A program made the translations under genes and the position numbers. From Candidatus Zhuqueibacterota bacterium (GTDB lineage: Bacteria; Zhuqueibacterota; Zhuqueibacteria; Zhuqueibacterales; Geothermadaptataceae), in NCBI GenBank assembly GCA_030950365.1, contig JAUZRQ010000017.1:1-32858 (forward strand): DNA of 32,858 nt, read 5' to 3'. Of this stretch, positions 28,235 through 32,858 are shown one piece after another. Below the pieces are notes generated by a model. The model was not told the DNA's origin, did not search any database, and was given only the letters and a program-made list of their open reading frames with translations. Each line of letters begins with the position of its first letter. Within the stretch, counting starts at the first letter, position 1.

Positions 28235-29659
28235 TCACCGCAAAAGCAGCATCCGCCGCACCTCTACTTCTTCTCCAGCCCGGAACTGGTACAGATACAC
28301 TCCTGAGGCCACTGCCTGCCCCTGGTCATCGCGGCCGTCCCAGGTTACAGAGTAAGCGCCGGCGCCCTGATAGCCCTTTACCAGGGTTCGTACAAGTTGC
28401 CCCTTTAGGTTGTAAATTTTTAACTGCACCAGGAGAGCGCCTGAAGGCGATAAAGGAACGGTGTAAGAAATAACGGTTTCTGGATTGAACGGATTCGGGA
28501 AGTTTTGCAGCAATTGGAACTCATCGGGTCTTTCCCGGTTCCGCTCGTTGACCGCTGTAGGCGAGTCTTTGCGCGGCAGAAACCATGGGTCGGCGTCGAA
28601 ACGATCCGTGGGGGTGGCCGCACTATCGGCATCGTACACTACGACGAAGGCGATGTCACCATGGCTGGTCAACGTAGGTTCTCCCACGGCAAAGGTGTTG
28701 CCGGTGCCGATGACCAGTTCCGGTTTACTCCAACTATTCCAATCGCCGGGGATGGATTGGCGGGCTCGATAAATACCGGATTTCAGAGTGATGGGATCGT
28801 CACTCATGAAATACAACCACCACTGGCCGGTGCTGTCGCGAAATAGGTGCGGCATTTGATTATCCAATTCTGTATTGATGCTGGTGGCCGGCTGCGGCTC
28901 GGCCCAGGAGGCCGCATCGTCGGAGCTGGTGGTGTACCAGATGTCCAGACCGCCCTTGCCCCCCGGTCGGTCGCTGTCGAAGAACAGCACCAGGCTTTGG
29001 CCATCAAGTCGCTCGAAGTGCGGGTTGTCTTCCACAAAATCCGAGTTGGCCAAAGGCGCGAGAAATTCGCCGATCCCGGACGGGTTGAGGTTGCTGTTAC
29101 GAAAGATCAGGATGTCTCGGTCATCTTCGTTCGGTGGCGAATCGTGATTGCTGGTATAGGCAAAGATGTCGGCGGTGCTATCATCTTTCATGATGATCTG
29201 CACCGCTCCCTCGGTCCAGATAGGGCGCGCCAGATTAGACAACTGCCACTCCGGGAATGGTTCAGTGACGCTATTGCGGTGGCTATACAGAATATCACCG
29301 TGCAGCCATTCCTTTGCACCGATGGGATTGGTGGTAAGGTCCATGCCGAAGGTGGGGCCACGGCGGTAGGGTGAAAAATTGGTGATGTCGCCATTACCGA
29401 CATAAATCAGGGAGAACACGTCCACCGGCAGATAAACGCAGTAGAGATTGAGTCCGTCTCGTGAGATATAAATGCCATCTTCCCAACCGCCCACAGCCAT
29501 GGGCAGCTTGTACGGCGTTTCGTATTCGTCGGGCAGGGCAACAAATGGCCTGGCATTGGCTTTGATGCTTTCCCAATCGGGCTGCGCGAAAACCATGTCG
29601 GCGCATAATAACAAACCAGACCAGACGGCGAAAAACGTTTTTATGGATTGCCTGGGCAT
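28235..29659 (-). CDS. Secreted sialidase-like beta-propeller protein with T9SS/FlgD-like C-terminal domain
   Basis: This 474-aa protein has a signal peptide (about residues 1-25, ending VFAQ). Residues about 30-370 have repeated W/D-rich strands and an Asp-box-like SSDDAASW, which suggests a sialidase- or PD40-like beta-propeller that may bind or cleave glycans. No catalytic set can be confirmed. Residues 379-474 form the FlgD-like sorting domain: FPNPFNPETVISY, TWDGRDDQGQAVASGVYLY and final RRMLLLR. Such domains direct export and surface attachment by the type IX system or a similar route. AGGAGG precedes the ATG by 7 nt. It follows the clan GH-A hydrolase gene by 64 bp, probably in one operon. 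Confidence 0.82.
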   Translation of the reverse strand: MPRQSIKTFFAVWSGLLLCADMVFAQPDWESIKANARPFVALPDEYETPYKLPMAVGGWEDGIYISRDGLNLYCVYLPVDVFSLIYVGNGDITNFSPYRRGPTFGMDLTTNPIGAKEWLHGDILYSHRNSVTEPFPEWQLSNLARPIWTEGAVQIIMKDDSTADIFAYTSNHDSPPNEDDRDILIFRNSNLNPSGIGEFLAPLANSDFVEDNPHFERLDGQSLVLFFDSDRPGGKGGLDIWYTTSSDDAASWAEPQPATSINTELDNQMPHLFRDSTGQWWLYFMSDDPITLKSGIYRARQSIPGDWNSWSKPELVIGTGNTFAVGEPTLTSHGDIAFVVVYDADSAATPTDRFDADPWFLPRKDSPTAVNERNRERPDEFQLLQNFPNPFNPETVISYTVPLSPSGALLVQLKIYNLKGQLVRTLVKGYQGAGAYSVTWDGRDDQGQAVASGVYLYQFRAGEEVEVRRMLLLR

Positions 29660-29723: not shown

Positions 29724-31565
29724 TCAACGTAGCAGCAGCATTTTGCGAGTCTGGTGAAATGGCCCGGCCTCGATCCGGTACAGATACACGCCACCAGGAA
29801 GCCTGCCGGTATCAAAGCGCACCGTATATCTGCCGGCCGGCAGACGTTCTGAAACCGGGCGGGCCACTTCCTGCCCGAGCATGTTGTAGATGCTTAGTGT
29901 GACGAAATGCGATTCAGGCAGGTCGAACGCAATGATGGTTGTGGGATTGAATGGGTTCGGGACATTTTGTGCCAAACGAAACGAACGCGGAAACGTCTGG
30001 CTGTGCTGCTGACCAATCGAAGTGACATTCGGTCGATCCACGATGGTGGCGTAAGTGGCCTGATTGTTGGCCGTGTCCTGCGCCACAGCCTGGAGCACAT
30101 GCGTTCCGGGTGTCAAGCCGGTCGGATCGAACAGAAACGCATAGGGCGGGGCGTGGATGGTTTGCACCACGTTGCCGTCCACCAGGAACGACACGCTGGC
30201 CACGGCATGATCATCGCTGGCAACGGCCGCAACCAGGGTGATCGAATCCAGAACCGCATGCTCCAGGGGCCAGACCAGTACCACCTGGGGGGGCGTCGTG
30301 TCGGGTTCTGTGGGTTCGGGCACGGAATTCCCGAGCTGGCGATTGGCCTCCTTGATCTTTTCGATGAAAAAATCGGTGTACCCCGGCTCGATGGAAAACT
30401 CGGTAAACAGGTAGGGCTGGTATTTGTAAAACTGCCAGACCCAGGGAGCACTGAATGGAATACGCAGTTCGACGATTTTGTTTAGCACGTTTTGGGAAAA
30501 CGGTGCCGTACGGTCGTACAAAATCGGTGGGTCCGCATCGGCGAACTCACCCACAAAGAGTAGCTTGTTCAAGGAATCGGCAATCTGTTTCACGACATCC
30601 AGCAGCTCAACGTTGGTGGCGCCGCTCAGTCCCCATCGCACATTGCTGCGCCGGGTATCTGGATAGAGTGTGTCCTCCACGCTGTTGTAAAAGTGGATGC
30701 TGATGATGTCCATATCGGCATGGATTTCAGCAAGATGCTGGATAAATTCTTCTTTCGAGTCTGGCGTCCAATCGGGTCCATCCGATGACCAGGCCGGCTG
30801 TCGTCTCAGATGAGCGGCTGCTCTGCGTGGCAGATTGAAGCCGGAGGAGATAAGCCGGGTCGAATCCAGGCTACGGATGAAACGCGCCAGGCGGCCCGTA
30901 AAAGCAATCAATTCATCCGTGCTGAACGTTGCGACAGCCCCGCATGGCGATTTGCCATCGCACCACACCTCGAAAAGGTTGATATCGGCGTGGTCGTTAA
31001 GCTCGTTGGATAATTCGTAAAAATAGACGGTTGGGTTATCGCGGTAACGCTGGATGAATTCCGATATGTAGCGGATGAGGGTCTGGTAGGACCAGGAAGT
31101 CGAATCGGCGATTAAGTCGGCAATGGTTTCGTTGCCGCTCATGGCCGGGAACTGCAATACGTTCCATACGAACACCGGCACAAGCCGCACGCCCGCGGCG
31201 TTCAGGTCTGCCATCAGCTCGTCGAACAATGCCCAGTGAGCTTGCGGATCGTGCATCCACAGATCCAGATCGCCCGGTTCGCCATAGGCCGCCGGTTGAA
31301 ACCCGGTGACCGACACACGAAAATAGGTGATGCCTGCATTAGCCGCATCCACGATGGCTTTTTTGGCCATGGCTCGGGAAACCTTCTGGTAGGCCGAACC
31401 GGCATACGCTCCCATGGGCGTGCCCTGATACTGCTTGAACAGATCGAATTTGTTAATGCCCACGGCCGGCTGAATATCATTTGCTGGTGGTTGTCCAAAG
31501 CCAGCGCGAATGATCCCAATGCAAACCATTATGAGAAGTAAAGAGGTTGTGATGCGTGTGCTCAT
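29724..31565 (-). CDS. Secreted clan GH-A (GH5-like) glycoside hydrolase with Ig-like and T9SS/FlgD-like domains
   Basis: This 613-aa protein has a signal peptide (about residues 1-25). A TIM-barrel domain (about 33-410) shows the acid/base Glu188 in YELSNELND and the likely nucleophile Glu340 in LLFVGEF, as in GH5-type cellulases and mannanases. A bacterial Ig-like domain (about 423-510, starting TPPQVVLVWP) and a FlgD-like sorting domain (about 525-613, NVPNPFNPTTIIAF to RKMLLLR) follow. It probably hydrolyses a plant-type polysaccharide at the cell surface; the substrate cannot be read from sequence. The open frame reaches a GTG at 31580, but AGGAG is 7 nt before the ATG at 31565. The downstream propeller gene is likely co-transcribed. 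Confidence 0.85.
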   Translation of the reverse strand: MSTRITTSLLLIMVCIGIIRAGFGQPPANDIQPAVGINKFDLFKQYQGTPMGAYAGSAYQKVSRAMAKKAIVDAANAGITYFRVSVTGFQPAAYGEPGDLDLWMHDPQAHWALFDELMADLNAAGVRLVPVFVWNVLQFPAMSGNETIADLIADSTSWSYQTLIRYISEFIQRYRDNPTVYFYELSNELNDHADINLFEVWCDGKSPCGAVATFSTDELIAFTGRLARFIRSLDSTRLISSGFNLPRRAAAHLRRQPAWSSDGPDWTPDSKEEFIQHLAEIHADMDIISIHFYNSVEDTLYPDTRRSNVRWGLSGATNVELLDVVKQIADSLNKLLFVGEFADADPPILYDRTAPFSQNVLNKIVELRIPFSAPWVWQFYKYQPYLFTEFSIEPGYTDFFIEKIKEANRQLGNSVPEPTEPDTTPPQVVLVWPLEHAVLDSITLVAAVASDDHAVASVSFLVDGNVVQTIHAPPYAFLFDPTGLTPGTHVLQAVAQDTANNQATYATIVDRPNVTSIGQQHSQTFPRSFRLAQNVPNPFNPTTIIAFDLPESHFVTLSIYNMLGQEVARPVSERLPAGRYTVRFDTGRLPGGVYLYRIEAGPFHQTRKMLLLR

Positions 31566-31577: not shown

Positions 31578-31910
31578 CACGTGGGTTGGGTTTCCAGGGG
31601 GAATTGCCTTAGGGGGGCCTTTCGGGGCAGGACAAGTTTCTCCTGCCAGACCTTTAAGGCCGGACTGGCGTTGCCAGCACCGTCATACAGCCCAGTGTCC
31701 TTCCATATCGCGCGGCCTTTCATCCCCTTTGTGCAAGTGAGTTTTACGAAAGCCATATCAACTATCGTGCCATTGGAAAGACGAACGGCTGGATTCCATC
31801 TCGTGTTTTTGATAACGATGAAGTTAGCAGGAAGGATCGTCTGTATTGGCTGCTTCTAAAGGTGTGAATTGTGACCACAGGTGTAGTTGATTTGCAACAG
31901 CCCATCTAAA
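31578..31910. other. Intergenic leader region with clustered hairpins
   Basis: No gene is seen. Upstream of the glycoside hydrolase lie GGCAGGA/TCCTGCC (31626-31632 with 31641-31647), the palindrome CCTTTAAGG (31651-31659) and CTGGC-GTT-GCCAG (31665-31677). Their density suggests a structured 5' leader. I could not match it to a known riboswitch. Confidence 0.4.
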
Positions 31911-31952
31911 CATGAAAACGGATGAGACTCATCGCGTAAATGAGTCTCATCC
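31911..31952 (-). terminator. Terminator-like hairpin after the GH51-like gene
   Basis: On the minus strand GGATGAGACTCAT (31952-31940) pairs perfectly with ATGAGTCTCATCC (31932-31920) around a 7-nt loop, followed by GTTTTCATGTTT. It lies 20 bp after the stop codon of the partial glycosidase gene. Confidence 0.75.
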
Positions 31953-31971: not shown

Positions 31972-32858
31972 TCATCGCAATATCAGCATCCGCCGCACTT
32001 GCACCTGCTCGCCGGCAACCAGCCGGTAGAGGTACACCCCGCTGCTCACTATTTGCCCGCGGTCGTCCTTGCCATCCCAGGTTACGGTATGCTCGCCGGC
32101 GCTCTGGCGGCCCCGCACCAGCGTGCGCACACGCCGGCCGCGAAGGTCGTAGATGGCCATCTCGACCTGACTCGCGACTGAAAGCTGGTAGCGGATGGTG
32201 GTTGCCGGATTGACACCGTTGGATAAAATCGCGCTCCTACTTCCCCTCTCGCCGCCATGGCTATCCAATGGGGTGAAGGGGTTGGGGTAGTTCGGATAAA
32301 GCGCGAATGTGCCAGGTGCGCCGGGTTCGTTGCCAAGGGACGTGATTGTTGTACCGGAAAGCTCCAGAAAAACCACCGAATGGGGTTGCAGCACCAGCGA
32401 ATCAACAGCGCCAGCAGAGACGGGTTCGTCCTGCAGTACCACATTCATCGGATTGGACTCATTGTGTGCCGTAGGGGATGGCGCCTCCAGACGGCGGATG
32501 CGGCCGCCATGGTAACGAAACCCCTCGATAGCCAAATGACACGATAGCATCTCCTGCTCAGCACTGTTACTGATCGCCACATACAGCGTGTCACCGCGAG
32601 CGGAAAGTGCGGCTGAAGCATTTACGTAAGGCAACACCTGGTCATACGCCAACTCGGACGGGGATTCCACCTGTACTGGCAATTCCCGGCTATTTTGCCA
32701 CGGCTTGAAGCCCTCGAACACATAGCCCATGGGGCCGATGCTGAAGCTGGTCCAGTTGTTGTACAGCGCCAGCCAGACGCCGCCCAGGGCAAACTGGTTG
32801 GCGAACCATACCGGAAATTCTGCTCCGGCATTGAGCGTGCGGATGAAAAATTCGGCGG
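31972..32858 (-). CDS. C-terminal part of a GH51-like secreted glycosidase (cut by window edge)
   Basis: The reading frame is open to the window edge, leaving 294 residues of the C-terminus. Its N-terminal visible part (FANQFALGGVWLALYNNWTSF, later LYVAISNSAEQE, NPMNVVLQDEP, VLQPHSVVFLEL) resembles the end of the catalytic barrel plus the beta-sandwich of GH51-type alpha-L-arabinofuranosidases. This family call is tentative, because the catalytic residues lie outside the window. The last 90 or so residues are a FlgD-like sorting domain ending in VRRMLILR, so the enzyme is secreted. The sorting signature is interrupted by 21 residues between NPF and NPATTIRY (see the repeat at 32212-32274). 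A terminator follows. Confidence 0.7.
   Translation of the reverse strand, partial: AEFFIRTLNAGAEFPVWFANQFALGGVWLALYNNWTSFSIGPMGYVFEGFKPWQNSRELPVQVESPSELAYDQVLPYVNASAALSARGDTLYVAISNSAEQEMLSCHLAIEGFRYHGGRIRRLEAPSPTAHNESNPMNVVLQDEPVSAGAVDSLVLQPHSVVFLELSGTTITSLGNEPGAPGTFALYPNYPNPFTPLDSHGGERGSRSAILSNGVNPATTIRYQLSVASQVEMAIYDLRGRRVRTLVRGRQSAGEHTVTWDGKDDRGQIVSSGVYLYRLVAGEQVQVRRMLILR
32212..32274 (-). repeat. 63-bp in-frame insertion with terminal inverted repeats inside the glycosidase gene
   Basis: Related domains read NPFNPxTxI; here 21 codons separate NPF from NPATTI. The inserted DNA has inverted ends (TTGGATA 32219-32225, TATCCAA 32262-32268) and contains GTAGGAGCGCGATTTTATCC on the minus strand, similar to small interspersed repeats seen in uncultured bacteria. 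It keeps the frame open and adds a Gly/Ser/Arg-rich loop. It resembles the palindromic elements that insert into Rickettsia coding genes. Confidence 0.6.

Follow-up and report, generated by a model that had tools for sequence, protein, structure and literature searches.

Why is one protein-sorting domain interrupted in the middle of its signature motif? The question is posed by the window, the whole stretch of 32,858 nucleotides analysed here, which is the complete contig C46 of genome G000 (Candidatus Zhuqueibacterota bacterium). Near one end of it, an open frame of 294 amino acids, cut by the contig end, occupies positions 31972–32856 of the minus strand and reads LYPNYPNPF-TPLDSHGGERGSRSAILSNGV-NPATTIRY around the interruption. 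NPF and NP are parted by 63 nt (32274–32212, minus strand), that is 21 codons in frame, placed precisely on a codon boundary of an NPFNP motif that is otherwise intact. The window's two other sorting domains are ungapped (NPFNPETVI and NPFNPTTII). The first-pass annotation was thus correct on the place, length and frame of the insert and on its uninterrupted neighbours. The features concerned are as follows.

32212–32274, minus strand: 63-nt in-frame insert of 21 codons between NPF and NP, read from sequence and frame, unique in G000 and among 82 genomes of the phylum.
32219–32268, no strand assigned: 50-nt stretch within 7-nt inverted arms, TTGGATA (32219–32225) and TATCCAA (32262–32268).
31975–32310, minus strand: predicted type IX secretion system (T9SS) type A sorting domain, a FlgD_ig-like beta sandwich, carrying the insert (TIGR04183, 34.2 bits; PF13860, 52.6 bits; AlphaFold2 core with the insert disordered).
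32353–32856, minus strand: stretch of the cargo gene (its 3' part) that precedes the sorting domain; probably arabinofuranosidase-like and truncated at the end of the contig.
29727–29969, minus strand: second sorting domain of the window, for comparison, with NPFNPTT and no insert (from the sequence).
28238–28510, minus strand: third sorting domain of the window, for comparison, with NPFNPET and no insert (from the sequence).

The window protein (P0001) passes the NCBIfam model TIGR04183 at its C-terminus, well above the cut-off of 23 bits, and judged by its sequence it is a member of the T9SS type A sorting-domain proteins and a predicted cargo of that system. Ahead of the sorting domain no Pfam family matches, and homologues of the 168 upstream residues are patchily distributed, occurring in two of 81 other genomes of the phylum. 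One of these (L320, in G070) is 39% identical and ends in a sorting domain with uninterrupted NPFNPRTTI, showing a sub-threshold match to the arabinosylfuranosidase ArfA (40.5 bits against a cut-off of 625); the other (L321, in G038; 29% match) has no sorting domain at its end and carries the alpha-L-arabinofuranosidase C-terminal domain PF06964. The glycosidase assignment made earlier is plausible but weak. The comparison with an insert-free homologue, which had been proposed as a check, agrees with the idea of an added segment: the sole homologue found with a sorting domain has an empty site, the insert is in frame, and the host protein is otherwise intact. Just 3' of the stop codon of this gene, two perfectly inverted 13-nt arms around a 7-nt loop (31920–31952) resemble a terminator.

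The insert had also been described as palindrome-ended, which our analysis does not uphold. The arms sit six or seven nucleotides inside the insert ends and enclose 50 of the 63 nt; as 50 nt is not a length that keeps the frame, the arm-bounded unit alone would break it. Such arms are mildly unusual, since a perfect inverted repeat of at least 7 nt near both ends, equal in quality to that of the insert, occurs in 62 of 4,000 stretches of 63 nt drawn at random from the window (1.6%); with placement anywhere in the stretch allowed, the figure is 434 of 4,000. As single-stranded DNA, the insert folds no better than shuffled sequences (z 0.80 and 0.33; separately -0.07), and no known RNA family matches between positions 31800 and 32858 of the window at E up to 1.

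The first-pass annotation had suggested a search for further copies of the 63-bp element and held that the absence of any second copy would speak against its reading. A 76-nt query spanning the insert matches only itself in its own genome, where the next matches are 14–20 nt long with E 0.6 or worse, and finds nothing in 39 relatives searched together with it, nor in the 81 other genomes of an 82-genome phylum set. An exact 19-mer from the insert is absent from IMG/VR, and in the f1 genomes, with two codon patterns tried, the window insert is the sole clear insert of its kind. Given its single copy, its only mildly unusual arms and a fold no better than that of shuffles, the window insert cannot by itself be counted as a mobile repeat.

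We also weighed a rival account, in which the surface loop after NPF simply varies in length and no mobile element took part, the 21 residues having arisen by slippage or from small indels. Other sorting domains of the same genome do carry different loops at this position (NPFSPDSDGHEDFALI in L077, NPFVPVASEDGVRLQL in L107 and NPFTPNGDGFNDRVRF in L095), and the lack of a second copy agrees with such an origin. In the AlphaFold2 model of the window domain, the core is confident, with ten-residue blocks from 41 to 110 averaging 93–98, and the insert is disordered (residues 13–27 and 29–33 under 50), forming a loop outside the intact beta-sandwich core. This disorder again fits ordinary loop variation; it also argues that the loop is tolerated, as it looks to be from the model. 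Against loop variation, no loop of this length was seen among the other domains of the genome that were read (about half of 114), and the insertion point falls exactly on a codon boundary of an intact motif. We consider this account a serious possibility, though one held at clearly less than even confidence, and it must also be set against what is found at the same codon boundary in related genomes.

A whole-protein search returned matches from a sister family of the same order, belonging to candidate division KSB1 (family f2; eight genomes, G007–G014), that align across the window insert and have inserts of their own at the same codon boundary. Most of these share a hairpin element, in its basic form 30 nt long (TGGAGCGNAGCGACATCCCGC-TCT-GCGGGA), with a conserved 5' end, TGGAGCG, and extended in other copies to 36 nt (stem CCCCCGCT/AGCGGGGG) or to 54–57 nt. 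The 36-nt form folds better than its shuffles (z -3.1 and -2.4), its stem being 92.6% paired as against 53–67% when slid. Three of the insert-bearing domains pass the TIGR04183 cut-off, and no known RNA family was found at the element in five loci. In the 54–57-nt forms (L126, L177 and L156) the loop of the basic form holds an additional hairpin. We also considered whether the window insert is itself akin to this element: the insert does contain the loose pattern GGAGC..GCGA..TCC, which matches twice in the window against an expectation of 0.33, but the f2 model has no match in the insert, and we do not claim the relationship. Spread by phage was rejected, as the exact element pattern is missing from IMG/VR.

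The KSB1 element is largely confined to the NPF/NP boundary. A pattern devoid of flanking sequence, allowing up to two mismatches, gave 34 matches in the eight genomes, 27 of them at this boundary, and at zero or one mismatch all 19 matches lay there. The seven off-site matches (L157, L158, L166, L168, L169, L172 and L185) all had two mismatches; a reversed control pattern gave 11 matches in the same eight genomes. A model likewise built without flanks (R1), trained on 19 copies that were all at the NPF site and came partly from the protein search and partly from the flankless pattern, returned 33 matches in these genomes at E up to 0.1. Of these, 32 were at the boundary, in a single orientation and frame, and among the 14 absent from the training set 13 were so placed; the sole off-site match (contig C54 of G014) had E 0.046. 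No intergenic copies were found in the f2 genomes. Matches were most numerous in G013 (20), followed by G012 (8). The residues ahead of the insert are mostly NPF, with NPV or NPL in L183, L187 and L186 and NLF in L154 and L167. In three of the 32 copies at the site, the domain appears damaged or diverged (a stop soon after the insert in L171; NLF in L154 and L167).

Other sequences occur at this boundary as well. Loops in L113, L119, L122, L125 and L132 are non-palindromic, from which it follows that the loop varies anyway, a point in favour of ordinary loop variation; such variation would nonetheless leave the hairpin copies of KSB1 unexplained. In L116 (G012, contig C7, 22170–22630) the NPF insert has another palindrome (GTGGCGTAGCCGCTCGCGCGGCGGG), and the site may thus serve more than a single palindromic family. 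A second kind of insert, ending in GG[CA]NTTCGGC or similar before AAYCC, is seen at the same boundary in L121 (G011, contig C461), L131, L317 and L318 (G014) and L108 (G013, contig C7). Peptides of this kind are APLGRGTFGN, SPLGRGISGN and SAKAHGAFGN, two of which begin with [AS]PL; the window insert begins with TPL.

How the hairpin came to occupy so many domains can be read from the 20 copies in G013. Inside the insert, codons for the same residue agree in 0.73–1.00 of pairs, as compared with 0.48 and 0.23 for the two codons that precede it and 0.66 and 0.25 for those that follow. Differences by codon position are 0.10/0.31/0.13 within the insert versus 0.03/0.06/0.49 upstream; they are not concentrated at third positions, meaning that the insert does not behave as selected coding sequence. 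Six copies are identical over their first 18 nt and differ in their flanking codons. Protein-level selection or plain descent of the domain would not yield such conservation, which copying of DNA into diverged domains would. Since the insert DNA is conserved while the adjoining codons are randomised, the best explanation for these sequences is that the element probably spread as DNA, being copied into sorting domains that had already diverged.

Two other accounts of this conservation were weighed. The hairpin could have been gained once and then carried along as sorting domains were duplicated or converted among paralogues. These domains are abundant (114 matches in the window's own genome), and two KSB1 genomes have the element in apparently orthologous genes (L117 and L126). 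In G013, however, conversion tracts would need to end at the borders of the insert, which is far more conserved than the codons touching it on both sides, and in other phyla the same element is found outside sorting domains. We regard such passive spread as unlikely. Selection on the nucleic acid itself could also yield the conservation of the insert, if the hairpin were kept for a role in the mRNA, for instance a pause before the sorting domain is synthesised, with bases conserved whatever the codons. The base-level conservation against the codon frame, the conserved stem and the constant position near the 3' end of cargo genes would suit such a role. Yet most sorting domains do without the element (20 copies in G013 against 302 first-look candidates from the protein search), stem covariation is not above that of shuffles, and copies in other lineages occur in both orientations or outside sorting domains, making a function of this sort quite improbable in our judgement. 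Spread as DNA into diverged domains thus remains our preferred reading for KSB1.

To follow the element beyond KSB1, we drew on an exact scan of one genome per species across 84,980 species, which gave 56 matches in 53 stretches. All nine from two KSB1 genomes (JAKEEU and JAJVHT) were at the NPF/NP boundary, and 12 of 13 from JAQUPX (STD1_36) and JAQTXJ (STC_131) lay beside a sorting domain. Copies in Bacteroidota (Saccharicrinis, Chitinophagales and Phaeodactylibacter) and in Armatimonadetes had no sorting-domain site and, judged from open frames only, were mostly intergenic-looking. In the STD1_36 genome (G040), the model gives 24 matches, of which 19 fall inside a sorting domain or immediately ahead of one, in both orientations, and all 18 of these that were tested against TIGR04183 pass (L295 was left out); the other five (L299, L302, L304, L310 and L311) are elsewhere. 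In G040 the flanks are conserved to much the same degree as the insert (0.80 and 0.83), so that co-duplication with the domain is conceivable in this genome and the account of passive spread gains some ground. The same genome has further repeat-like peptides (AVCHLAHLEHPAQAATA, NNPPTADFASLNNG, EYGTSRSGGDTN and NMEHPALA) in sorting-domain loops or tails (L295, L308, L312, L298 and L292), as if several translated repeats had entered the same domains.

A candidate for the enzyme behind such insertions is the Y1 transposase family (PF01797), which was found in 15 of the 16 genomes searched for it, f2 genomes among them; at eight loci examined, no f2 element stood beside a Y1 transposase gene. Excerpts of PMC8266576 describe IS200/IS605-type enzymes as picking their sites via a tetranucleotide 5' of a stem, and by analogy the GGAG of the f2 element could be a guide tetranucleotide. 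In all 20 G013 copies the element is preceded by T or C, which is too short a target to explain the confinement. We infer that selection against insertion elsewhere also fails to explain the missing intergenic copies in that genome.

Translated repeats had been held to be rarely described outside Rickettsia, a view that passages of two sources speak against: intragenic REPs of the GTAG and CGTC types are listed in several species (PMC3733652, in part), and reading frames of MITEs fused in frame are reviewed for bacteria besides Rickettsia (PMC2229807, in part). The KSB1 element resembles Rickettsia palindromic elements (RPE) and MITE-type repeats in being palindromic DNA tolerated in frame inside genes, as the latter text describes them. 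RPE, according to the same excerpts, are 105–146 bp long and are spread over many unrelated genes as well as intergenic DNA, whereas the f2 element is 30–57 nt long and keeps to a single boundary in a single domain family; the window insert differs from RPE in being single-copy. With REPs, which are hairpins of 20–40 nt, the 30- and 36-nt stem forms share their size and their several copies per genome, the 54–57-nt forms being longer. The resemblance extends to REP/RAYT (TnpA-REP) systems, as REPs can be intragenic (PMC3733652, in the part consulted) and Y1 transposases are present in f2 genomes. Unlike REPs, however, whose two super-families are defined in that excerpt by a GTAG or CGTC tag, the f2 element has the tag GGAG; 32 of its 33 matches are inside sorting domains, while REPs are mostly intergenic; and, in contrast to REP/RAYT systems, it has at most 20 copies per genome, none beside the eight Y1 genes. 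The domain, too, departs from the usual T9SS type A form (TIGR04183/Por_Secre_tail) in that NPFNPxT is split by an in-frame insert. We conclude that the element works like translated palindromic repeats such as RPE and intragenic REPs, yet does so without a REP tag and without being extragenic.

Taken together, our leading reading, which we hold at a little under even confidence, is that the NPF/NP boundary of T9SS sorting domains serves as a docking site for translated palindromic elements, with the window insert most likely an event of the same class. Short palindromic DNA elements would enter this codon boundary and stay in frame, and their translation would give a disordered loop on the domain's edge. 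In KSB1, one hairpin family (30, 36, 54 or 57 nt) would have been copied as DNA into many diverged domains, at one boundary and in one orientation. Insertion may proceed by single-strand transposition of the Y1/HUH, REP-like type, or by hairpin-directed copying that favours the site, and the loop would presumably be neutral for export. The 63-nt insert of the window would be a private event of this class, now single-copy or decayed. It shares place and frame with the f2 inserts but not sequence, copy number or hairpin, for which reason we file it as a probable but unproven member. The earlier suggestion of a coding-compatible mobile repeat is thus partly supported, being right in kind, because dozens of KSB1 domains carry another hairpin element at this boundary, one that behaves as spreading DNA, and unproven for the window sequence, which is single-copy.

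A broader and more doubtful possibility is that a miniature hairpin family homes to DNA coding for secretion signals. In KSB1 it would insert as DNA at the NPF/NP boundary, in frame, in one orientation and hardly elsewhere; in STD1_36 the same element would take up the linker that directly precedes the sorting domain, facing either way. The window insert would then be a further element, unrelated to this family, that uses the same harbour.

Translated palindromic repeats scattered through unrelated genes were already known; what is new is a hairpin element apparently restricted to a single codon boundary in a single domain family, itself present in some hundreds of copies per genome. Among the papers we searched, none links such hairpin elements with T9SS sorting domains. 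The main value of the window insert is the docking site to which it pointed, and its position hints at an unusual meeting of mobile DNA with protein export. If our reading is correct, a protein-sorting motif would act as a safe harbour for mobile DNA, and these genomes would offer a natural setting in which to study site choice by miniature elements, the ways in which insertions are tolerated or exploited by sorting signals, and the birth of short peptide loops from mobile DNA.
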